Origin: Tubulanus polymorphus
Lineage: Eukaryota; Nemertea; Palaeonemertea; Tubulaniformes; Tubulanidae
Direction of reading: 5' to 3'
NCBI RefSeq assembly: GCF_964204645.1
Contig: NC_134035.1
Span: forward strand, 11,036,501-11,100,500
DNA: 64,000 nucleotides
Shown: positions 1-60,905 of the stretch, piece after piece
How the letters are laid out: each line of letters opens with the position of its first letter
Numbering within the stretch: position 1 is the stretch's first letter
Position numbers and translations under genes: made by a program
Notes under the pieces: model-generated
What the model was told of the DNA's origin: nothing
What the model saw: only the letters and a program-made list of their open reading frames with translations
Databases searched by the model: none

Positions 1-28289
<28,289 letters not shown>

Positions 28290-28487: not shown

Positions 28488-30201
28488 TTACGACGACGTG
28501 GTTTCGGTTTTAGTCGGCGCCGGCGGCGTAGGTCGCGTCGTTCCGTCGTTAGAAACCTCCGGATCGATGCTGCTACTATCGTTCGAATCATCTTGCGCGA
28601 CTTCACGTCGTTCTTTCGGATCGAGAGCCGCCGCCGCTCCCTGCGTCGCCGACGACGAGACGTCGCTCTTCAGTTTTTTCGCTTCTCGTTTCGTATTCCC
28701 GTTCGATTCATCCTCGTCATCGTCATCATCTTCTTCGTTAATCGATCTCTTCGTAGACGACGGCGGCAGCTGGGGCGCCGTTTCAGCCGCCGACGCCGCG
28801 TGGTTCGACTCCTCGGTCATCTTAAGTTGCTGCACGCGCCAATCGACGGCGCCGAATAAATTATCGATGTCCTTCGAGCCGGCCATAACGAGGAACACGC
28901 GAATACCATCGTCGCATTGACCGGTGATATGAATACTTTTCGAACTGGCGCGCTCGACCATCATCCCCGACCAGACTTTCGTGTTGAGAATAACGGTCAA
29001 CGTGCCGTGCATGCGTATGATTATACGCGAATGAAACGGTTCGTCGTTGTCGGCCGACTTGTCGTTCAAACGCAGCAGTCCGCGACCGCGTTCCAGCCAG
29101 TTGTGCGTCGCCTTCTCGAACATGTACAGTTTGCAGTTGATCTGCAAGACGTTCGACTCGGCCTCCTCGCCGGTGAACGTCGGAACCTCGTTGAATTCTT
29201 GCACGGCGTGTTTCGCCTGGTACGCTGACGCCGATTCGGCCAACGTCGTCGTCTTGTCGGTCGACGGACTCGTCGCGACGTTGCCGTTTTTCATCGCGTC
29301 CGACGAATCCGCGTTCAGATCTTTCAACGACACGTTATTCGCGCCGATGAACTGTAAACTGGCGCCGCTCGATAAACTACCCGCGCCGCCGCCGCTCGTT
29401 TTACTACTCGTCGACGCTTCGTTTCCGGACGCCAAATCCGTCGGACTAGCCGGCGTTCCGGTTACCCTTTCGGCGATATTTCGTCCGAACACGAAACCGG
29501 ATCCGCGTAAATCCGACGACGACGTCGACGGCAGCGGTGGATTATCGGCTTCTTTCGGTCCGTCGCTGATTTTCGGGACGCCGCAAACCCGTTCGCCTAA
29601 ATTCTTACCGAAAATGAAACCGCTACTCGACGCTTGATTGTCCGCGGTTTTCTGGTCGGGCGACGTCGCCTCGGCGGTCGTCGTCTGAGCCGTCGCTTCG
29701 TCGACAGCTTCGTCGGATTTCGAATCGGACTTCGGCGGCGAAAGAACCGGCTCCGACGAAGTCGATATGGAATTGACGGGGGCCACGTTTTCGGATGCCG
29801 CTTTTTCAAAGCCCCTATCCGACGAGTTCAGTTTCGTCGCGGTAAAACCTTTACCGAAATTCACAGTTTTCGAACTCAATGCAGACGGACGTAAATAAAT
29901 GCTGTTTCGCGACGTCGTTGAATTGTCGTCCGCGTTCGCGGTTTTTTCTCCGCTCGCCGCCGAAATTTTATCCGAACCGCCGGCGCCGCCGAACATCGGC
30001 GTGAACGTAGCCGGCGCGATGATCGGTCGATCTTTCTTCTCGTCGTCGATGTCCGTCTTGTGGGCGGCCGATCGAGCGAATGGATTCGCCGCGAATCGGT
30101 TAGGAGCGAGGATTCCTCCGCCGCCGAACGCGGCCGTACCCGTCGCGCCTCCGGAACTGTGACCAGAATCACGTTTCAAATTATCAGCCATTCTCTCTAC
30201 T
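28488..30201 (-). CDS. RANBP3: RANBP3, Ran-binding protein 3 (single coding exon)
   Basis: Nuclear cofactor that binds RanGTP and CRM1/exportin-1 and helps leucine-rich-signal cargo leave the nucleus. Start ATG 30191-30189 (MADNLKRDSG), stop TAA at 28490-28488, 567 residues. An acceptor (tttttcag) lies just before 30201, so an untranslated 5' exon exists, and the frame upstream of it is intron. Two FG-type motifs, FIFGKNLGERV (about 192-202) and FVFGRNIAERV (about 233-243), match the paired FxFG(Q/K)N elements of vertebrate RANBP3. The Ran-binding domain is at about 339-456, with TGEEAESNVLQ and ERGRGLLRLND. A Lys-rich stretch KREAKKLK near 500 follows an acidic run and may be a nuclear signal. 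Vertebrate RANBP3 is split into many exons, so one uninterrupted coding exon is unusual. The exon is GC-rich and intact, so it is unlikely to be a dead copy. Confidence 0.95.
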
Positions 30202-30203
30202 CT

Positions 30204-31472
30204 GAAAAACAAAAACAACAACGCCCATGAAATGAATGAGAAAGTGATTTGAACTAGGCCTATCATTGGGTGGCCACTTTTATTTGACTCGCTTTGCCTT
30301 CCCCCCCCCCCCCCGACTATTCCCTGACATATACATTGTTTTCCCTGACTTGATCAATTATTCATACAGGCCATAAAACGTAGTCGGAAACTGTTTGATT
30401 TTATACCCGATTCAGCAATCAAAATTCCTGGACCATTCCCTGACGTTTTAATAAGGAAAATAAAATTCCCTGACTTTTCCCAGATATCCAGATAGGGAAA
30501 TTGTTGAATCAACTTTCGTAGTCTATTATGACATGTTTTTATTGCTGGTTGGTGTACTTTGGAATCATCCAGGCTAACCCAAAACATGATGATTTCTGAT
30601 TGGCTGCTGATGATGGAGGAGGTGGAGTTCTTGGCTAGGCTACGCTAGCAGCGTGCATGTCCTCCTCGGTATACTCGAGCGAGGAGTTCAATCACTGCCA
30701 AAGAGGGAAGATGGTGTCTCTGGCGATCCTGGACCGACCCATCGGCCTAACTAGGCCCAAGTTTCTTTTTTGAGAAGACAACACACCACACACACACACA
30801 CACAAGCAAGGCCCACACTGCACAGACGGTTTCTTTCCATTTTGAAAACAAAATTCTACCATGTACCAAAAACTTTAAAAGCAAACGCGCCAATCATTGA
30901 ATAAACAGGCTTACCAAATACTCGTATTGTACTTCTTCTTAGAAGACCATGAATTTTTTTTCAAAAACCACACTTACTCGCCAAATCTCGAACTTTACCG
31001 TAACAAAACGAGATCGGACGAGAATAAAAAGGTCGATGTGAAAACCGGCCCAAACAAAAGTCCTATTCCGTGTTTTTTTCTTAACCCGTATTTCAAATGT
31101 TTATGTAACGTTAAGTTTTAATTTCTCGATATGCAATTTTCATGAATTCTTTGCAAATTAATGCTTTATTTTGAAATGTTTGATCGGGTAATTTTATGGT
31201 GAATAATAAAAGGTCAATTAAGTTCAACCGGAGATATCTAGATATTTCGTTACACTACTGCATATGTACCAACAATTTATTCATTATTTAATTATATGCA
31301 ATAACTGATTAATCGGGAATTAGATAAATCTCAACAATCCATTCAATTTATCTGAAACAAACATTATTTTTAGCAGTGGTTTTGTTAAATTGTTACTTAA
31401 TAATCATACAAAAATTATATCAAACTTGTCTAAAGTTTTGTCGTTACACATACCCCTGCTTGAGATTGAGAA
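30204..31472. promoter_or_regulatory. Head-to-head intergenic region, RANBP3 and Pil1-like gene
   Basis: About 1.27 kb separates the RANBP3 acceptor from the Pil1-like start codon. It must hold the RANBP3 first exon and the starts of both transcripts. Positions 30268-30505 are a GTGGCCAC-ended repeat with a run of 14 C at 30301-30314, and a CA repeat sits at 30784-30803. No clear TATA box was seen. Confidence 0.5.
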
Positions 31473-31501
31473 ATGGAGAAAGCTGCCAAAACAATTCGCA
31501 G
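31473..31501 (+). CDS. Pil1-like gene exon 1 (start)
   Basis: ATG followed by eight codons (MEKAAKTIR) and two bases of the next Arg; donor gtttgt. An in-frame TGA sits two codons upstream. This exon is the least certain in the gene because it is so short. Confidence 0.7.
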
Positions 31502-34500
31502 GTTTGTCTTCATCTCTAATTCTCTATTCGTAGCTTTTTGTTCTAATTTCGTGCACATTTCTAAAGTACAAGGTCGCTATGAATGAATAATTCAGTTAAG
31601 CCTACCTTTCTTAAAACTGGTTGAAAATTCCAACCAGTCCAATTCGTATCGTAGTAGCTACGTTCGTTAGTTTAGTTACTGGCAACTGGTAAGCTTTTTA
31701 TAATCGGATGGGCTTATGTGGTTTGTGAAAATATTCAATCGTGAAAATAAACCACAGACCTGACAGGTTACTGACTACTACGTTACGGAACGTTTTACCG
31801 TTTTGTAGCAATTGTGGCAATGCCAAAAGTGCCAAGTAGTTAGACCTACCTTTTTCGGTGGTGAGCCCCATACTGATACTGGTGTTGAGCTTTAGATATT
31901 CTAATAATGCTTTAACCATCAGGAGTGTGAAAAAGCTAATCTGAAACTAAACCCGAGTCCAGTTTATTTGTGACTAAAAACCAAACTGCAATCCAATGCA
32001 GTCCAGTTGCTGAGACTAAACCGCATCATCAGTTCGGCCCCATCAGTTAGTTACTGACTTATTAAAGCACAGTCCAGTTACTGACTCAACCAGAGTCTGG
32101 TTATTGACTAAACTGAAGTCCAGTTATTGTCTATACCACAGTCCAGTAACTGACTAAACTACATCCATCCAGTTACTGACTAGACCAAATCAAGTTACTG
32201 CCTGAACTATAGTCCAGTTAGTGACTAAAAACAAAAGTCTGGAAACTGACTGAAACAGTCCAGCATTAGACCAACTTGTTAGATAATTGGTTAGCTACTG
32301 GTATTTCAAATACTGATGATTACCACTAAGTCCACTATGAGGCTAAGGCCAAACTGTGGAGAAAGAAAAATTAGCCCAGCTTTCAACAAATGATCGATGA
32401 CATTTTACAATTTTAAGGAGTAGCGTGCGCCTTCTGTCACTGACCGGTGGACATGGAAATCTCAATATGGTGATATCGGAAGAAAAAGACATTCGCAATA
32501 CTTCAAAAGCTTTCATGGCTGCTCAAAATTCGGGTATTTATACATTTATTAGTTTAAACATCTATTACAGCAGTACGCGATTAACAAGAGAAATCCCACA
32601 ATAGATACAGCCAAAAATGAAAAGTTCTATGGTAGAATGGTATATATTTCGAGCTATGTTGATAATATTATTAGCAAACATCGGGCGTACTAAGAACAGA
32701 ATGAAATCAACGTAATATTTATTCAAGAATCAGAGTACATCATCCCATGTCGACAACTTATCCAAATGAGAATTTAGAAATTTTAATCGGAATATGAATT
32801 GAGATGTAGAATAAGAGATACAGGTTAAAGTGGTGTAAAGATTATCGATGAACCCGCGTCTGAATATGACAGAGCTAACAATGACAACATTTACGAATCG
32901 AATGGTTATTTTTGAATTGATTTATCATTTATATTCAGCTGCTCAGTACATGATGAAATGGGCGTTGCAAGAAGATGACAGAGCAATTCAGGTATACTTA
33001 ATATTTTGTTACACAGAAAACCCTTGATATGGATGTATGCATTTAGTAGCTTTGATTTTGACTCCTTTTTTGCCGTTAACCTTAGGACGTCGTTTGTCAG
33101 ATGGGAGAATTGAATATACTGTGGACCGAAGTGCAGCGTGAATTTACCGGTAAGGAATATATTTCTGAGCAGTTTTATTATTATTTCGCGATGCTGATTT
33201 TTTTTTGAATTTAGAAAAAAGTCTTTTTGTTTTCATTTCTAGAGCAATTGAAAATGTTCAAACAAATGTTCGAGTTGATATTGGAAGGAGAAAAACACAT
33301 CGACCAAGCGCGAAATCATCTCGTACGTAATAATATCATTGTAGTACCGTCAAGTACAATCAAATTACGGATAGATTTTATTCGATTCTAAGAAGTCATC
33401 CGACATAGTTGTCCGGGAGAACACAAAATATTCCCTTTCTCGACAACTTAGATCTGGATCCCGATCAGAGAATTTGCTTGTACCAAACTATAGATTATAG
33501 ATCGTTGATCTTTTGCATTTCTTGATCCCACCCTTTGGAATGCTCTACCCAAAAAACATTTGTTATGAGCCCAATTTAGTAAAATTCTCCAAAAGCTGTT
33601 AACTGGATTACTTAAACGCGCCTTTGAAGACCTGGAATGCATTTGAATGGAACATTTGAATTTGGCACTACATGAATATTATTTCATCTTCATCATCAAT
33701 TGAGCATAGAATCCTCACTAAAATGCTGTCCAGTTATCCACTGCCCTCCTCTAAAAGACATCAATCCCAAGTGACGACTGCAAATCTGTTAATGTGAGGA
33801 TCAACTGTTGCCATTTGTTGATTTTCAGGCCTTATGCGAACAGAAAGAAGGCAAAATCAAGAAAGAATTGAAGAAAGCTGCAAAGGTGAATATCACTCAT
33901 TCATACTCGTTCAGGTTTAGGTACAAACACCCGGAGATAGTTGCTCAAAATTCAGTTTAAGTTAACTAGTGAACAGTTGACACGTCAGTAACAATTGAAA
34001 ATCAATTGTTTTTATCCAACAATTATCAATAACCGACTTAACTTCGAGCAACTGACACCTATAAAACATAGAGGCAGCTGTATGTCAATTTCCATGTTCA
34101 CAGAGTTTCTGTGTTACACATCTACAGCAAGCTGGTATAACCATTGCCGCATTGGCCAAGTAGACTAGTTCTATTGGTCTACTGGTTAGCTTTTGCTTTC
34201 TACTTACGCGACCCGGGTTCGATCCCCAGTCAGTGCATGTACTGGTAATTTCACTACGGTCATTTCTTATATCTGGTCGTTTTATCAATAATGAGGTGAA
34301 ATGGGTTTCTGATTTCAGTTCGCCACTAACGACGAGATCCGATCTTTAGAAACGAAGCTCTTACAAGCCGAAAGAGCTAAAGATATCGCTAAGTTAGAAT
34401 GTAAGTTGACTGCAAACAAACAATATCGAACTTCTATCTGTTGAATATCTTGTTTATCTATAGCATGGTTCCTACAGTACGGGGAAATTGGGAAAAAACT

Positions 34501-36413
34501 TACATCTTAAGATAATACTTTCCAGTTTCGAAATATAGCAGGGTGACCACTTACCAGGGAATTTTGTAAATTCACCTAGCTGTGGGGAATATAATGTGTA
34601 TTCTGATATTTCGTTCGGTTGTTTTCTCAGTTGAAGATCGAATTCGCGAAAACGAAGCGATCAAGCTGACTCGGTTTCGCGAAGGGTTGATCAACGTTTC
34701 TCAGGCGTACATCGAGATGGGTAAGAAATGCGCGATCATCCACGAAGCGCAGCAGGATATCGCGTATCAGTTACCGGACGTTCAGGAGAAAGATATCGAG
34801 GATATAAAATATACTGGTGAGTACAAATTCATTACACTGTTCCCTCCACAGAGCTGCCAACTGTCCCTGATTATCAGGGACAGTCCCTGAATATAATATG
34901 GGAATATAACTTGCTTCCTCCGGCCCTGGATTGCCTGAGGTTATCACATGCCTGTTTAGACATGCATGTATGTCGGAGAGAATTTATTGGTCCTACAAGA
35001 TTTTGAGATAAGCTGAAACTACAGAAAAAAAAAGAATTGTATCATGACTTTGCAAGACTTGGTGAATGGATGAACGGAGTGGCTTATTTCCGCAGAAAGT
35101 TTCCCATGATCTGACTTGACCCTTGGTGGTATGACCTGATTTGTATTGATTCTTGAATTTAGGTTCTGGTGCTACGAAACAGTACGTTTTAAAAGCTAAA
35201 GAGAAAATCAAGCAGTACAACAGACGTGCTCGCATACGAGCTTATAATACATCAGGTACGTGCGCGAATTCAGAGTCCTGTTTATACGAATACTGTACAG
35301 AGTGGCTACTTACTGTTGAGTAGACTCCAACAAACTCAGTAAAGTTTGAATCAGTTGCATGAAGTTGATAAACCCTCTCAGTGCTTCTACCGGTGCACCA
35401 CATTGTAGTTATAAATCTAAGCAGTGTATCGGTTTAATTAGTTATAATCTCTATGGGAAGATGGCAGCACCTATTACGCAGGTGTTCTCTATCGGCATGC
35501 CTATTGCACGATACACTGAGGTTTTCAAATTATCCCCAGCTCCTCAGGGTAAAATCTGGTCAGCTCTGAAAGGGTTAAGTTAACCATTCGATAAGTACTG
35601 TCGTAACAATGAAGTTTTAATTGTCACTTAGTCAACTATCTGATGGTTTACTTGAATCAACTTTTAAGCAATTGGCCCCAGAGGCTGGTTCCATAGTCAA
35701 GATTTACCGGTTAGTCCAAAAATTAGTCTTAGAATTCAATCAAATCTAGTCCTACTTCGAATCTCGACTATGGAACGGGCCAGTAGTATTACAGCATATG
35801 TTAGGCAGATTTTGTTGGAATAATGATATTCTAATCACATCCAATTTCAGCCAATCAAGAGCCGCCGCCTCCTTATACGCCGGGAGACTTCTTTCAAGAA
35901 CGCGTAAAACACACGGTTCAACTCGATCCTGAAATGTCGGGTATACAGTCACCGCTGACCACACAACAACAACAACAGCAGCAACAACAAGCTCGACTTC
36001 AACCAGATCCCGATAGTAACATGTTACTGCAATCACTGATCGAACATCCAGAAGTCGACGGGTCGAACATGCAATTACTGATCAATCCTCAACTGCAGTT
36101 AAACCTACAACCGGTGAACGATCGTTCTCGTATACCGGACGCGAAACCGCCGCCGCTGCTTCAACGCCATCGTCCTCCGCCGAAGATTCCCAAACAGCCT
36201 CAACAACATCAACAGCAGCAGAGAACGCCGGCTTCATCTTCCACGGGACGTCTGCCCGGGCACGCTCCGCCGCATCCCGCCGCTATTAAACAGTCATCGC
36301 AGCAGCCGCCTGCACCGGCAGTCGTAACGCCACCTTCTAGCTTCGATCGCGTCGAATGGGACTCGGATTACGAAGACGACATCGCCGACATGCTCGGCGC
36401 AGCGAAAATGTGA
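31473..36413 (+). CDS. Pil1/Lsp1-like (eisosome-type BAR) protein, spliced gene, 10 exons
   Basis: Ten exons (31473-31501, 32418-32533, 32939-32991, 33086-33149, 33243-33322, 33829-33885, 34319-34400, 34631-34816, 35163-35255, 35851-36413) join in phase to 440 residues. The start is secure: TGA lies in frame 6 nt upstream. Residues 30-250 are mostly helical and charged. Three blocks resemble yeast Pil1 as I remember it: AAQYMMKWALQEDDRA, LETKLLQAERAKDIAKLEF and YTGSGATKQYVLKAKEKI, in the same order and with similar spacing. Pil1 and Lsp1 are banana-shaped BAR-domain proteins that bind PI(4,5)P2 and shape plasma-membrane furrows. The tail differs from the fungal one: PPPY at 259-262 (WW-domain ligand type), nine Gln at 292-300, a Pro/Gln-rich stretch, and acidic VEWDSDYEDDIADML at the C terminus. 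There is no signal peptide or membrane segment. Function in animals is inferred from fold only. Confidence 0.85.
31684..31790. repeat. Dispersed repeat, inverted copy at 62412-62520
   Basis: The text GCTTTTTATAATCGGATGGG and TGTGGTTTGTGAAAATATTC recurs as its reverse complement at 62430-62520. The two copies lie 31 kb apart in opposite orientation. Confidence 0.65.
31930..32280. repeat. Degenerate minisatellite of CAGTCCAGTTACTGACTAAA units
   Basis: About a dozen imperfect 20- to 30-bp units in intron 1 of the Pil1-like gene. The same words occur in the tandem duplication at 25471-25712. Confidence 0.75.
32418..32533 (+). CDS. Pil1-like gene exon 2
   Basis: The exon is 116 nt, acceptor ttttaag, donor gtattt, phase 2 in and phase 1 out. 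It encodes residues 10-48, from SSVRLLSLTGG to AFMAAQNS. SEEKDIRNT aligns with the KIEKNVLRS stretch of Pil1. Confidence 0.78.
32939..32991 (+). CDS. Pil1-like gene exon 3
   Basis: The exon is 53 nt, acceptor tattcag, donor gtatac, phase 1 in and phase 0 out. It encodes AAQYMMKWALQEDDRAIQ, which matches the Pil1 stretch with AAK, a Trp and ENDDD. Confidence 0.85.
33086..33149 (+). CDS. Pil1-like gene exon 4
   Basis: The exon is 64 nt, acceptor ccttag, donor gtaagg, phase 0 in and phase 1 out. It encodes DVVCQMGELNILWTEVQREF, a predicted helix. Confidence 0.85.
33243..33322 (+). CDS. Pil1-like gene exon 5
   Basis: The exon is 80 nt, acceptor tttctag, donor gtacgt, phase 1 in and phase 0 out. 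It encodes residues 88-114, helical, ending GEKHIDQARNHL. Confidence 0.87.
33829..33885 (+). CDS. Pil1-like gene exon 6
   Basis: The exon is 57 nt, phase 0 on both sides, acceptor ttttcag, donor gtgaat. It encodes ALCEQKEGKIKKELKKAAK, strongly basic. In BAR proteins such Lys-rich stretches often face the membrane. Confidence 0.87.
34172..34245 (+). repeat. tRNA-derived SINE fragment
   Basis: A-box-like TGGTCTACTGGTTAGC at 34175-34190 and a perfect B box GGTTCGATCC at about 34216-34225 are spaced as in a tRNA. The flanks do not pair into an acceptor stem, so this is a tRNA-derived SINE head, not a tRNA gene. It sits in intron 6 of the Pil1-like gene. Confidence 0.6.
34319..34400 (+). CDS. Pil1-like gene exon 7
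   Basis: The exon is 82 nt, acceptor atttcag, donor gtaagt, phase 0 in and phase 1 out. It encodes residues 134-160 with LETKLLQAERAKDIAKLE, the block most like the LEQELVRAE region of Pil1. Confidence 0.9.
34631..34816 (+). CDS. Pil1-like gene exon 8
   Basis: The exon is 186 nt, acceptor ttctcag, donor gtgagt, phase 1 on both sides. It encodes residues 161-222, with KLTRFREGLINVSQAYIEMG and KKCAIIHEAQQDI. The hydrophobic spacing follows the Pil1 helix that ends in the IALIAGYGKALLE stretch. Confidence 0.9.
35163..35255 (+). CDS. Pil1-like gene exon 9
   Basis: The exon is 93 nt, acceptor aatttag, donor gtacgt, phase 1 on both sides. It encodes GSGATKQYVLKAKEKIKQYN and an Arg-rich end (RRARIRAY). 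This is the last helix of the BAR-like part. Confidence 0.88.
35369..35578. mobile_element. Decayed relative of the piggyBac-like MITE
   Basis: The ends AAACCCTCTCAGTGC and GCTCTGAAAGGGTTAA resemble those of the 280-bp MITEs. The element is shorter (210 bp) and the left TTAA is mutated. It lies in intron 9 of the Pil1-like gene. Confidence 0.6.
35851..36413 (+). CDS. Pil1-like gene exon 10 (tail and stop)
   Basis: Acceptor atttcag, phase 1 in, stop TGA at 36411-36413. It encodes residues 254-440: EPPPPYTPGDFF, polyglutamine from CAA/CAG codons, Pro/Gln/Ser-rich disorder, and an acidic end with a conserved-looking Trp. Confidence 0.92.
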
Positions 36414-50018: not shown

Positions 50019-53000
50019 TGATCATCATTATCGTATGTTCGCCAATTAATAAATACATACGCAATACATGGTCAGTTTCAGTTTCAAAACCAGTTTTAGC
50101 GAAATTTCTAAATTCGATATTTTTTAACCGATCTACAAAGCCGAAAACATCACGCCTTGAAATTTTTAAGCCCCATGTTTGGTCGACGCCAGGCTGAGCG
50201 TGATGAAGCCCGGGTTCGTTAAATTTCGTTCTTTCTGATTTATTTCGAATATAATCTAAATAAAGCCATGCTATCTTGAAGACTCAGTATGTATGTATTA
50301 ATTAGAAATAATCATTTAATAAAAATCAAACGGTGCTTTAATACACGACAGCACCGGCCGGCCACGTGGGGGGATCGGCTGGCTTTTTTAGTTGTGGATA
50401 TAGCTTAATTCACCCCCTATAAAAACATTTATCTCAATATAAATGCAGATCTGACTACCATTGCATCACCTTTTGAAATGATTTCCGCATATTTGACGTC
50501 AAAATTTCATCAATTGAAAATGAGCTAGAAATAATTCAGAATTTTGATATTTCTAGGGCTAGTCGAGTTCTTACAAAGGTAACCTCAAATAGTAGTATTA
50601 GTGGTAGTCAGAGATGATTTGAAAAACCTTCACAGCGCTTCTTGAGAATTAGGTTTCCGTTCTGGATAACAAAATCTTTTGAAACAATAGTCGAAAGCAT
50701 ACCATTTTATAGCCCACTGTACGCAATTCCCAACGCAGCTCAATTTAGAAATAATTCAAACGAAAGCTATATTTACCACAGCTAAAAAGACTCGAGTCCA
50801 GTTGCTCAAAAGTTAAAGATGACCAGCCGATAAATACCATACATACAGCGGAACCTCGTTACAACGAACTTCACGGGACCAGAAAATGTTCGTTATAACC
50901 GATAGTTCGTTTATATCCAGTAATGTCTTACTCGGGATGAAATTCTATATTTGTTATATCCGATGAATCAATGTATCGGAGTTCGTTATAACAAGGTTCC
51001 AATATTGAACTTTTAATTGTCACTATGTCAACTATCCACCGGTTTAGTCCGACCAACTTTTCAGCAACGGACCCCTGGTAGCCAAATCCCGATCCAAATA
51101 TTCACCCGCTTCTGAATATCTCGATTTCTAGGCATAGCAATAATCGAAGAGAAAGAAAGAGAGGCAGGCTGAATCGAAGCGTAGATCTCTCTTTCGCTGG
51201 CAATCGCGCGACCCACAGGTGTACAACATTTAGTTATATACGACCCATAGGTGTACAACGTTCAGTTATATACGACCCATAGGTGTACAACGTTCAGTTA
51301 TATACGACCCACAGGTGTACAACGTTCAGTTATATACGACCCATAGGTGTACAACGTTCAGTTATATACGACCCATAGGTGTACAACGTTCAGTTATATA
51401 CGACCCACAGGTGTACAACGTTCAGTTATATACGACGTGTAAGTCGTTAAAGCGTTAGAAATCAGCGACATCGCGGCTTACACGGATTATTGGTAGCAAA
51501 TAAAATAACGAGACACTTTTTTCGATATTACGAATAGTCTAAAAATTAACACACTATGAAATCATCAAAAACACGGGCCAGATTCGATAATAACAGTCAG
51601 CAGTTAAATGATATCGAGGTAGTAGTTCTACCACGGGGCAATGATAATAGTTCAAGCGAAATGAAGAATAAATTTCACGGCGACGACGACGTTTTGATCT
51701 CCGAGCCCGATTATAGGAGGTGCATTATTATAGTATGTCACATTGAAAATCATCATCTCAAATTCCCGTTTAAAATCGATTTAAAAATCATCATCCGGAT
51801 TTAGAAGAGATTGAAACAAAATAATCAAAAGTCATATATTCATTTCGATAATAATATTAATCTGAATAATAATAATAATAATAATAATAGTTATTAATAT
51901 TTCAGTTCATTCACCATTAATTGTATTCGCGTATGGGTGTACATATTACGCCTAAAACCTGTAGTTGTTGTTGTGACGTCCTGAATGTAGGGACAACCGT
52001 TGGAAATGCCTCTCCAAACCTTACAAAAATATTCAGAGAAATACATCACAGTTAATCGGCCTTATTAAAAAGATGGACAAATTCCCGAGAAAAATTGCGG
52101 TACCCCCGATAAAAGCAATTTCAAAGACAGTTTTGAAATATTATCAACTTAATTAAGTTAAATCCACAACTACAAAAACCAGAATTACCCCGGACCTGAA
52201 ATCTCATCAATACGCCCGCATCAAGGCTACTTTGTAGTTCTTTTTTACTCGGTAAAAGATGAACAATTTCATTATGATGTTTCATTCTCAGTAAACCAGA
52301 GAAAAAGGAAATATTTCAATCGCACAATGCTTGATATGCAATACATAATATGGTATACGCGCGGTATAGAAAAGGGTGTTGCTATTGTTCATCTTTGTTC
52401 AAATAGATATTCGGGGAGATGTCCTTTAACGTAACGAAGCCTGATAAAAAAATAGCTATATATCGATATACGAGCGCGGACATACGATAGAAAGATATTT
52501 ACCGTTTTCGACTGGAATTCCGAGATTTGTGAGGACGAATTCGGCGGCTAGACTTTTCGCTTCATCGACAGTTCTGCATAGTTTCGTGGGCGTGAATGGG
52601 TGCGACATTGCTGGAACGGTCACCTGCAACATTCAAGTACAATTGAAGAGAAATACCCACTATTAGGCTAAAAACAATTGATACCTTGTCTCTCATTTCT
52701 GCCGAGCTGACCCAGCCAGCCACCCTGTACATTACCATTTTTAAAATCATGGTCTACAGATCCAGCAGTTATGGAAACAACTGATTACAAATTTTATTAC
52801 AGTTTGCAAAATGACCCCACCAATTAGGAGAAACAAGGTACCATTTTTTTTAACCTTATCAAGAATAGCTAAGAGAGTTGTGATATTTTGACTACGAGCC
52901 ATTTTCAGAACTTCAATTGACTTATACACAGTCACTTGTCCATGGAAACCATTACAAATTGATGTTGTACTCAAACAAAATGATTTCTTCTATTTCTGAA

Positions 53001-59000: not shown

Positions 59001-60758
59001 ACTAACACCTAATTTTCCCAGTGACCCCCTCTCACGGTTAAAAAAGAAGAATCATGATTCAATCAGAAATATCACATCTAAAACATCTCCCAAAACGTGG
59101 TTACAGTAATTTAGTCATTATCTTACCATTCAATTCTTCCATTACTCTCATGGCGTCATTACGTTCGCGGAAATGAATGAACGCGTAATCCCTGATTTTT
59201 TTCACACGTTCGACGGCGCCCTCTTTACGCAGGGCCTGATTACACGCTTGTTCTATCGTGTCCTCTGTTGTGCTGATCATTAGGTTTCTCATATATAATA
59301 TTTTAACCTGCGGAAAAGGTTTTTCGAATTAGGAACAAATTTCTCCATTTTTCTCAAAAATTTCAAATCATCACTTTTAAGTTTGCATTTCTTTCAACAG
59401 TTTTGTGTCAGAACTAAAATTTCAACAAGACCCAGTTCAACAAATGGATTTTCTCAAATTGACCTTGTTATATGTTGTCCAATTAAACCAAAAATTTAAT
59501 CTAACTCAAATTTTTGGTTAAATTGCCATTGATAAATTGATAATTTAATGTTTTCAATGAGGACGACAATTCAAACTTTTAAACTTTAGCATTAAAACAG
59601 AACCAAGGTTATAGGGGCCCAATTTAATAAAAGATTTTAAACTAATTTTGGATTTAGTTGGCAGTCGATTTTACCTCATGTTCTCCTTAAGTAAAACATT
59701 TTTAGCCAGAACCTTTCTTTTCAAAAACCAGATGCACGTGTTAATTTCTTAATAGGCCTAGTGTGTATAATAATCTTAATCAAAAATAATTATTTTCAAA
59801 ATTTTCTATTCCAAATTTCCAAGATTTTCGAATTTCAAAACATGTTCTCAATTTCCACCCATTTATTTAGGCTAATTTAATTCTTGGGCACTTCATATGA
59901 ATCATATAAAAAGCTTCCTTCATTATCAAGTTTTTCGAATCACACATGACTACATTTAGCCTACAATCAGGAGAGGCTGCGAATTTTTGCATAATTATTT
60001 GCTAGGGCCTACACAGTTTTGATAAGATACACCATTCTAAAGAAGATTTATTACATTTTTAATCGACGATCTAAAAACAACCTTACCTTCGACATGACTT
60101 CCTCGTCGACTTCTCGCTCCGGTTCGGCCCAATCGACGGCGATTTGATGCGCCCACAACTGTATTTTGCCGGGGATCAGTTTGCGTCGGGCCATGGCCGC
60201 GGCCCGGTGACTTTCATACTCGACGAACGCGAAGCCGCGGTTTTTCGTTTTGTCCATGGCGCTCGGGTAGACGATCACGTCGACGACTCCTTCGGTGACT
60301 TTTTTCATCTCGGCCAGGATTTCGTCGCGTTGCTTATTTTTTGGTATTCCCCCGACGAACAGGCGGCAGTTGTCGACGCTCAGACACACGCCCAAATAGC
60401 GGCCTTTTCGGATTTCGTAGTTGTTCAACTCGCGCACGGCTCTCAGAGCGTCCGAGCGACTGGTGTACATGACGAACGCGTAGCCGCGATTCGAACCGCT
60501 GAAATCCATCATCAGCCGCAATTCGTAAATCTGCCCGATCTTCTCGAACACGGGCACGAGCTCGTCTTCGAAACAATCGCGCGGAATTTTTCCGATGAAA
60601 ATCTCGCATCCCTTCGCCGGGACCGGCTGGCCTTCTCCCCAGTGCGGCGGCGGTCCGCCGTATTTTCTTTGCCCGTTTTCCTGGATCATGCTGTAGCCGG
60701 TCCTCTCCATCAGCACGAGTAGAGCCGCTTCGTTCGGTTTAGCGCCGGGGTTATCCAT
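47723..60758 (-). CDS. A1CF: A1CF/RBM46/RBM47-type RNA-binding protein (spliced gene, 10 coding exons)
   Basis: Ten exons (60087-60758, 59127-59307, 57483-57595, 56888-57018, 55069-55183, 54247-54333, 53219-53317, 52503-52623, 49436-49606, 47723-47895) join in phase to 620 residues. Order: RRM1 about 51-128 ([16 protein letters not shown]), RRM2 about 131-212 ([16 protein letters not shown]), RRM3 about 227-302 ([15 protein letters not shown]), the family tag [11 protein letters not shown], an Ala/Tyr-rich part, an RG-rich stretch (367-390), [16 protein letters not shown] (about 410-425), a DND1-type double-stranded-RNA-binding domain (about 434-502), and a Ser/Thr/Ala-rich tail. Vertebrate A1CF is about 594 residues. 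A1CF is the RNA-binding partner of APOBEC1, which is a vertebrate enzyme, so in an invertebrate the role is more likely general mRNA processing or stability. The dsRBD favours A1CF or RBM46 over RBM47. The start at 60758 was chosen over an in-frame ATG 48 nt upstream because [13 protein letters not shown] begins the conserved part. Confidence 0.95.
48412..48546. mobile_element. Hairpin MITE, CCGCGATTACA ends
   Basis: CCGCGATTACACGGATGATT at the left pairs with GATGTAATCGCGGCATC at the right. Related CGCGATCACACGGA-type text occurs near 7276, 18852 and 51469. It is in intron 9 of the A1CF-like gene. Confidence 0.65.
49436..49606 (-). CDS. A1CF: A1CF-like exon 9 (Ser/Thr/Pro-rich)
   Basis: The exon is 171 nt, acceptor ttctacag, donor gtaata, phase 1 on both sides. 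It encodes residues 507-563, low complexity ([17 protein letters not shown]). Its length is divisible by three, so it could be skipped in frame. Confidence 0.87.
49974..50012. repeat. (TA)n microsatellite
   Basis: About 19 TA units within intron 8 of the A1CF-like gene. A shorter TA run at 49636-49658 lies just upstream of exon 9's acceptor on the coding strand. Confidence 0.93.
50785..51075. repeat. TTGCTCAAAAGTT hairpin repeat, split by another MITE
   Basis: It starts CAGTTGCTCAAAAGTTAAAG and ends CAACTTTTCAGCAACGGACC, a palindromic pair. It is interrupted at about 50846-51003. Confidence 0.65.
50846..51003. mobile_element. MITE with GGAACCTCGTTACAACGAAC ends (nested)
   Basis: CAGCGGAACCTCGTTACAAC at the left is preceded by TA. 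The right end GTTCGTTATAACAAGGTTCC is its inverted partner. The ends resemble pogo/mariner-type elements; class by inference. Confidence 0.65.
51209..51437. repeat. Seven-copy 32-bp tandem repeat
   Basis: Units of 32 bp (AGGTGTACAACGTTCAGTTA then TATACGACCCAT), starting at 51217 and repeating every 32 bp to 51409. Units differ only at a C/T in CCCAYAGG and in the first copy. The near identity points to recent amplification. It is in intron 8 of the A1CF-like gene. Confidence 0.95.
52503..52623 (-). CDS. A1CF: A1CF-like exon 8 (dsRBD second part)
   Basis: The exon is 121 nt, acceptor ttgcag, donor gtaaat, phase 0 in and phase 1 out. It encodes residues 467-506, [20 protein letters not shown] then EFVLTNLGI, the terminal helix of a DND1-type dsRBD. 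Confidence 0.95.
53219..53317 (-). CDS. A1CF: A1CF-like exon 7 (dsRBD first part)
   Basis: The exon is 99 nt, phase 0 on both sides, acceptor ttctag, donor gtattt. It encodes residues 434-466, with [19 protein letters not shown], matching the KNNWGQPVYQLHSAIGQD stretch of A1CF. Confidence 0.95.
53790..54063. repeat. Two tandem copies of the GGTTTCATAGA-type MITE
   Basis: Each copy ends in CTATAAAACCAGACCAG (53897-53912 and 54048-54063), and each contains ACATTTTGAAATT followed by GGTTTCTC. They are reverse relatives of 23507-23664. Confidence 0.65.
54247..54333 (-). CDS. A1CF: A1CF-like exon 6 ([16 protein letters not shown])
   Basis: The exon is 87 nt, phase 0 on both sides, acceptor attag, donor gtatac. 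Its motif is nearly identical to [16 protein letters not shown] of vertebrate A1CF, which settles the family. Confidence 0.95.
55069..55183 (-). CDS. A1CF: A1CF-like exon 5 (RG-rich)
   Basis: The exon is 115 nt, acceptor cttccag, donor gtaagt, phase 2 in and phase 0 out. It encodes residues 366-404, with [18 protein letters not shown], an RGG-type RNA-binding stretch probably open to Arg methylation. Confidence 0.92.
55554..55733. mobile_element. 180-bp near-perfect palindrome (foldback element)
   Basis: The left arm AAAAAATAATTGAAAGTCCG and right arm CGGACTTTCAATTATTTTTT stay paired for about 85 bp through AAAATGTTTC and TAGTTATCTTC, with a loop of only a few bases near 55640. It is just upstream of exon 5 of the A1CF-like gene. 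Confidence 0.9.
56888..57018 (-). CDS. A1CF: A1CF-like exon 4 (Ala/Tyr-rich)
   Basis: The exon is 131 nt, acceptor ttactcag, donor gtacaa, phase 0 in and phase 2 out. It encodes residues 323-366, with [20 protein letters not shown], a low-complexity region. Confidence 0.9.
57095..57150 (-). repeat. tRNA-derived SINE fragment
   Basis: On the minus strand TTTAGCGTAGTGG runs straight into GGTTCGAATCC, i.e. A-box-like and perfect B-box words with the middle deleted, enclosed by GTCAAGGG and CCCTTGAC. It lies in intron 3 of the A1CF-like gene. Confidence 0.5.
57483..57595 (-). CDS. A1CF: A1CF-like exon 3 (end of RRM3, [11 protein letters not shown])
   Basis: The exon is 113 nt, acceptor aaaccag, donor gtaaga, phase 1 in and phase 0 out. 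It encodes residues 285-322, ending [17 protein letters not shown], which parallels the KDSYVRYTRG part of vertebrate A1CF. Confidence 0.95.
58420..58535 (-). CDS. Alternative-looking duplicate of A1CF-like exon 3
   Basis: After an acceptor (aatgtag) at the right phase, the frame reads [18 protein letters not shown], nearly the same as [18 protein letters not shown] in exon 3 at 57483-57595. It then diverges to [13 protein letters not shown] and meets TGA after 40 codons (about 58417). No strong donor is seen; weak ones (AA|GTGCCG, TAG|GTTCGA) would leave phase 2, which fits exon 5 but not exon 4. It may be an alternative end, a skipped-form exon or a decaying duplicate. Confidence 0.6.
58855..58957. 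mobile_element. Hairpin MITE, ACCCAGTTCCACAGT ends
   Basis: It runs from CACCCAGTTCCACAGTTCTG to TCTATGGAACCGGGCCCTGG. It is a sister of 15710-15817 and 16260-16375, located between exon 2 and the duplicate exon 3. Confidence 0.65.
59127..59307 (-). CDS. A1CF: A1CF-like exon 2 (RRM3)
   Basis: The exon is 181 nt, acceptor ttccgcag, donor gtaaga, phase 0 in and phase 1 out. It encodes residues 225-284, with [10 protein letters not shown] and [17 protein letters not shown], very close to vertebrate A1CF. Confidence 0.96.
60087..60758 (-). CDS. A1CF: A1CF-like exon 1 (RRM1 and RRM2)
   Basis: Residues 1-224 in one exon; donor gtaagg, phase 0. The signature [20 protein letters not shown] before RRM1 is typical of the A1CF/SYNCRIP group. 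[16 protein letters not shown] closes it. The exon is GC-rich. Confidence 0.96.
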
Positions 60759-60805
60759 AATTATTAATCGGTGATGGTTAAATAGACTTGCATAGACGAC
60801 AATCA

Positions 60806-60905
60806 CACGCTACACTGATTTCATTCAACTGGCTACTCGCGCGACGGGACGCTTATATTCAACAAGACGTGCACTTGCCGCGCAGGTGCACGCGCACCTG
60901 TATAT
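60806..60905 (-). promoter_or_regulatory. Candidate promoter of the A1CF-like gene with paired E-boxes
   Basis: On the minus strand ATATAAG lies about 95 nt upstream of the start codon (near 60858-60852). About 25-45 bp further upstream are CAGGTG and CACCTG six bases apart (60883-60888, 60895-60900), forming an inverted pair, plus a single CACTTG-type box near 60872. These suit a bHLH or Snail-type factor; binding is inference. Confidence 0.45.

Follow-up and report, generated by a model that had tools for sequence, protein, structure and literature searches.

The gene at 31473-36413 on the forward strand of the window (the whole 64,000-nucleotide stretch of Tubulanus polymorphus DNA that was analyzed) probably encodes a divergent animal relative of the yeast eisosome proteins Pil1 and Lsp1; judged by sequence, distant homology is likely rather than certain. 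The explanation that we favor, with good but incomplete confidence, is that of a bilaterian gene for a divergent Pil1/Lsp1-type protein that would form a membrane-binding BAR-type dimer and carry an adaptor tail. The original prediction of a Pil1/Lsp1-like identity is supported in part: the gene is a real animal gene, and its first ~250 residues most likely descend from a common ancestor with Pil1/Lsp1. Two of the three residues of the PI(4,5)P2 pocket of yeast Pil1 are not conserved, and neither is its N-terminal lattice segment.

The gene model consists of ten exons with GT-AG borders throughout, and all phases close to give a single open frame of 440 codons plus a stop, as expected from the ten-exon spliced gene that had been proposed. 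The joined frame contains no stop except the final one, and the remaining two forward frames contain 21 and 15. Codon usage was scored using a model trained on three neighboring open frames, and the LLR per codon was 0.115 in the coding frame versus -0.169 and -0.322 in the other forward frames. The length of ~250 residues given originally covers only the Pil1-like part, which is the first ~250 of 440 residues and is followed by a 187-residue tail. Exon 1 (31473..31501) starts with ATG, encodes MEKAAKTIRR (basic, and a possible amphipathic helix) and ends at a GT donor in a phase that fits exon 2. This 29-base exon is the least certain of the model; an in-frame stop lies just upstream of it, and exon 2 has no methionine ahead of GHGNLNM. 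Exon 2 (32418..32533) encodes residues ~10-48, which align where the Pil1 helices begin (EEK33 opposite IEK66). The Trp block AAQYMMKWALQEDD, in which W56 is aligned with Pil1 W89, is encoded by exon 3 (32939..32991), and exon 4 (33086..33149) encodes MGELNILWTEVQREF, whose Pil1 counterpart in the alignment is KLGVLIYEVSELDDQF. Exon 5 (33243..33322) corresponds to the helix aligned with the PI(4,5)P2 pocket of Pil1, and exon 6 (33829..33885) encodes the lysine-rich KKELKKAAK ahead of the presumed BAR hairpin tip. Exon 7 (34319..34400) carries the block LETKLLQAERAKDIA, aligned with Pil1 LEQELVRAEAESLVA; exon 8 (34631..34816) encodes the presumed third long helix, with a seven-residue insertion relative to Pil1; and exon 9 (35163..35255) carries the block GATKQYVLKAKEKI, aligned with Pil1 EASKQIIIDAESAL. 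Exon 10 (35851..36413) encodes the tail and the stop, and has no counterpart within the aligned Pil1 region. The tail is rich in Pro, Gln and Ser (75 of 187 residues), with PPPY at 259, RPPPKIP at 361 and an acidic end.

Pairwise alignments were made with Pil1 of S. cerevisiae (PDB 8qb7, 8qbf), the core BAR protein of the eisosome, using Pil1 letters checked against PDB chain 8qbf, and with S. cerevisiae Lsp1 (PDB 3plt, 8qb8). Identities were found at 49 of 221 aligned residues for Pil1 and at 49 of 220 for Lsp1. Three blocks align in the Pil1 order, pairwise and with MAFFT alike, in agreement with the original prediction: AAQYMMKWALQEDD with Pil1 AAKQLSIWGLENDD, IRSLETKLLQAERAKDIA with IEVLEQELVRAEAESLVA, and ATKQYVLKAKEKI with ASKQIIIDAESAL. 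Features kept relative to Pil1 are W56/W89, EDD/NDD, F86/F118, K33/K66, R9/R43, the LE..L..AE block and the final KQ helix. Note that the R9/R43 pairing is less firm because alignment of the N-terminal stretch to Pil1 requires gaps of 6 and 5. Lsp1 has the same blocks and differs from the animal protein as Pil1 does, with the six-residue gap ~20 residues earlier than in the Pil1 alignment. From W to the last KQ there are 172 residues, compared to 159 in Pil1 (13 extra), and the gaps relative to Pil1 are +1, +6 (close to where the hairpin tip is presumed), +7 (a full heptad, in the helix that follows) and -1. Residues 1-208 are free of proline, the first being P209 within the stretch aligned to Pil1 LLDDSPVTPGETRP, and Pil1 has three prolines inside the matching span (P141, P161 and P164). 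The proline-free span and the pattern of gaps would suit a helical BAR module whose arms slightly exceed those of Pil1 in length.

When residues 1-253 were compared with Pfam, the Pil1 family PF13805 was the sole credible match (E = 5e-6), extending over profile positions 58-263 of 265, that is, 206 of the 265 positions with the blocks in order. The family thus ranks first, as expected for the proposed PIL1/LSP1 profile match, but its 26.7 bits fall narrowly short of the curated cut-off of 27 bits. The whole 440-residue protein also scored under the cut-off, at 24.7 bits (E = 2.1e-5). A better match to another coiled-coil or BAR family had been named in the original prediction as refuting; none was found in Pfam, where the families next after PF13805 had E values of 0.062 and 0.63. 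No credible match was obtained in NCBIfam (best E = 0.71). This case shows that a distant relative lying just below a curated profile cut-off may remain unnamed.

Sites of known function in Pil1 were compared individually. According to the available excerpt of PMC11324527, the PI(4,5)P2 pocket of Pil1 is formed by R126, K130 and R133 and the PS site by K66 and R70; the amphipathic helix (39-48) and the lattice contact (1-8) are both N-terminal. The pocket is not conserved: in an ungapped stretch, R126 is replaced by K94, K130 by E98 and R133 by L101, leaving one of the three basic. At the PS site, K66 is kept as K33 and R70 is replaced by N37, with R36 adjacent. In the putative N-terminal helix, IRRS pairs with FRRS of Pil1 where the alignment is gapped; the helix's hydrophobic moment of 0.41 was matched by 384 of 5000 shuffles and is therefore not unusual. 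The lattice contact has no counterpart in the pairwise alignment, which begins at approximately Pil1 residue 35, so that ~34 N-terminal residues of Pil1 are missing from the animal protein. MAFFT placed the first four residues on Pil1 1-4, followed by a 34-residue gap. Note that both placements of the N-terminus depend on exon 1 being right.

These sites bear on whether the protein is a true animal eisosome organizer, polymerizing on furrows of the plasma membrane to form a lattice like that of yeast. This reading shares the homology part with the explanation favored here and differs in mechanism, and the likelihoods that we assign to the various readings therefore do not sum to one. It draws on the ~220 residues that align with Pil1 and on the lipid-pocket residues R43 and K66, kept as R9 and K33, but the lattice contact without a counterpart in the pairwise alignment and the replacement of two of the three PI(4,5)P2 residues weigh against it, and we consider it unlikely. 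Profiles for Sur7 and Eis1 matched nothing in the genome, but the controls were equally silent, and this result should be considered to count for little.

For the divergent Pil1/Lsp1-type protein that we favor, residues ~24-250 would fold as long antiparallel helices and dimerize to give a BAR module of shallow curvature. The dimer may be anchored on the cytoplasmic side of the plasma membrane by lysine-rich hairpin tips and by a short, basic helix at the N-terminus, and the long tail could bring in partners via its PPxY motif. PPxY is a ligand of WW-domain proteins such as the NEDD4-type ubiquitin ligases. Such a protein would be expected to associate, as dimers or short assemblies, with membrane that is curved or furrowed, and to serve as an adaptor; a full fungal eisosome coat is not expected, given that the lattice contact at the N-terminus is missing along with two of the three PI(4,5)P2 residues. 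It most likely functions as a BAR-type scaffold at membranes, with the tail as adaptor, where membrane binding, curvature and partners are those that the family and the motifs suggest. A complete eisosome coat appears less likely from the same residues.

It is also conceivable that the gene encodes a coiled-coil protein belonging to some other, unnamed animal family, and that the likeness to Pil1 arises from shared helical composition and chance. Alignment scores were compared with those of randomized sequences. The semi-global score was 90 against Pil1 and 85 against Lsp1, and the reversed sequence scored just 23 against Pil1. Shuffles that preserve the heptads reached the observed score in 0 of 1000 trials for Pil1 and in 0 of 1000 for Lsp1. 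Block shuffles reached it once in 1000 for Pil1 (0 of 1000 for Lsp1) in the first run, which favors the chance reading, but in a second run with Pil1 they did so in 0 of 20000 trials for the semi-global score and likewise in 0 of 20000 for the local score. Some of the profile results count against the favored explanation, and those for residues 75-253 alone, for hhalign and for the three-sequence profile can be read as favoring a coiled coil. Residues 75-253 alone gave no Pil1 match in Pfam; residues 1-119 alone matched PF13805 with E = 6e-4, a value that one shuffled control equaled with another family. The Trp/EDD block and its surroundings thus supply much of the Pil1 signal, which is convincing only for the Pil1-like part as a whole. 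A search of PDB sequences returned Pil1 first but weakly (E = 0.027), with two NSE1 sequences next (0.05 and 0.064), and hhalign against a two-sequence Pil1/Lsp1 profile was also weak (probability 3.6, E = 0.012). A three-sequence profile built from the animal protein, Pil1 and Lsp1 retrieved Pil1, Lsp1 and then, behind them, an SMC4 coiled coil (E = 3e-4) from the PDB. Against these results stand the ordered match over most of PF13805 and the controls for it: among the exact reverse and nine shuffles, none of the ten matched PF13805, and chance matches to other families reached down to E = 6e-4. On balance, a coiled-coil protein resembling Pil1 by composition and chance is distinctly unlikely.

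BAR domains resemble one another in composition and in being helical bundles, which could allow a member of another animal BAR family (FAM92/CIBAR, classical N-BAR or F-BAR) to score better with Pil1 by chance. However, no other BAR family was matched in Pfam at E values up to 1, and no other BAR chain was present among the 4 PDB sequences matched by the protein, or among the 12 matched by the three-sequence profile, at E values up to 10. Membership in another BAR family is accordingly very unlikely.

The window corresponds to 11.04-11.10 Mb of contig 11 in a 268-Mb assembly. To the left of the Pil1-like gene, on the reverse strand, is a HIPK-type kinase exon (23776-24882). In the PDB it matches HIPK3 and HIPK2 best (E = 2e-112), and DYRK comes next among the families (E = 8e-38); HIPK is an animal family. 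A long exon on the same strand (28488-30353), encoding a Ran-binding domain closest to RanBP3 among PDB sequences (E = 6e-38), lies ~1 kb left of the Pil1-like gene and opposite to it in orientation. To the right, also on the reverse strand, 60051-60809 encodes a two-RRM protein for which a Dnd1 chain is the nearest match (E = 1e-52), ahead of hnRNP R and SYNCRIP chains. Elsewhere the genome encodes a Prospero domain (three matches, contig 1), Prospero being bilaterian. A search with COX1 detected no mitochondrial record. No second copy of the Pil1-like gene was found when the genome was searched with the protein (11 candidates scored; 7 matches, all inside the gene) or with the tail (2 matches, both in exon 10). 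A search of the same genome with the PF13805 profile missed even the Pil1-like gene, its controls were silent, and it was unusable for copy counting. Contamination by a fungus, or recent transfer from one, would suit the excerpts in which Pil1 (PMC5618247) and eisosomes (PMC11371571) are called fungal-specific, but was rejected as scarcely credible, as the original prediction had already done for contamination, given an identity to Pil1 of just 49 of 221 residues, ten exons, animal-type genes flanking it to left and right in the window, and a contig of at least 11.1 Mb.

Within fungi, the Pil1 family includes Ssp1 and Meu14, which act in ascomycete sporulation. They are specialized members with a membrane role outside the eisosome, as is proposed for the animal protein; unlike it, they are fungal and guide the prospore or forespore membrane (excerpt of PMC12470953). 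Relatives of the animal protein were sought in general genome contigs (0 of 40 pattern stretches confirmed), in viral contigs (0 of 9 confirmed) and in phage records (no match). Note that these collections hold few or no animals, and the counts therefore say nothing on distribution among animals. Among the open-literature records listed for Pil1 and eisosomes (25 of 105 for the broadest query), none is a study of an animal Pil1 protein, as judged by titles and the openings of abstracts. Searches with animal group names were uninformative, since the animal terms dominated them and none of the records listed (20 of 1,257, 20 of 22,460 and 3 of 1,868) contained Pil1 or the eisosome term. Database entries for animal Pil1 proteins, named or unnamed, may exist.

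If the assignment is confirmed, the Pil1 family, known mainly from fungi, is wider than thought. The excerpt of one review links eisosome-type furrows to cell-walled organisms (PMC5753163), and eisosome-like furrows are reported in algae too, according to the excerpt of PMC13353863. The occurrence of a Pil1-type protein in an animal, which has no cell wall, would uncouple the protein from the wall, and would offer a second system for asking what eisosome-type BAR proteins do. It is possible, though doubtful, that the Pil1 family is older than the divergence of animals from fungi and persists in certain invertebrates as a scaffold, independent of any wall, for membrane furrows or tension sensing. 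In that case it would have dispensed with the PI(4,5)P2 pocket of fungi and acquired an adaptor tail whose PPxY motif would link a stable membrane microdomain to ubiquitin-dependent traffic.

Repeats were observed at several sites in the window. Intron 1 of the Pil1-like gene contains degenerate 23-base repeats (32063-32229), and the motif TTACTGACTAAAC is common to these and to a 123-base repeat at 25470-25714, ~6 kb to the left; the repeats that share it are perhaps a dispersed element. A long minisatellite at 12484-13881, with 43 copies of a 33-base unit, accounts for long open frames of repetitive sequence on either strand. At 51209-51436 there is a near-perfect 32-base minisatellite of 7 copies with 96% matches.
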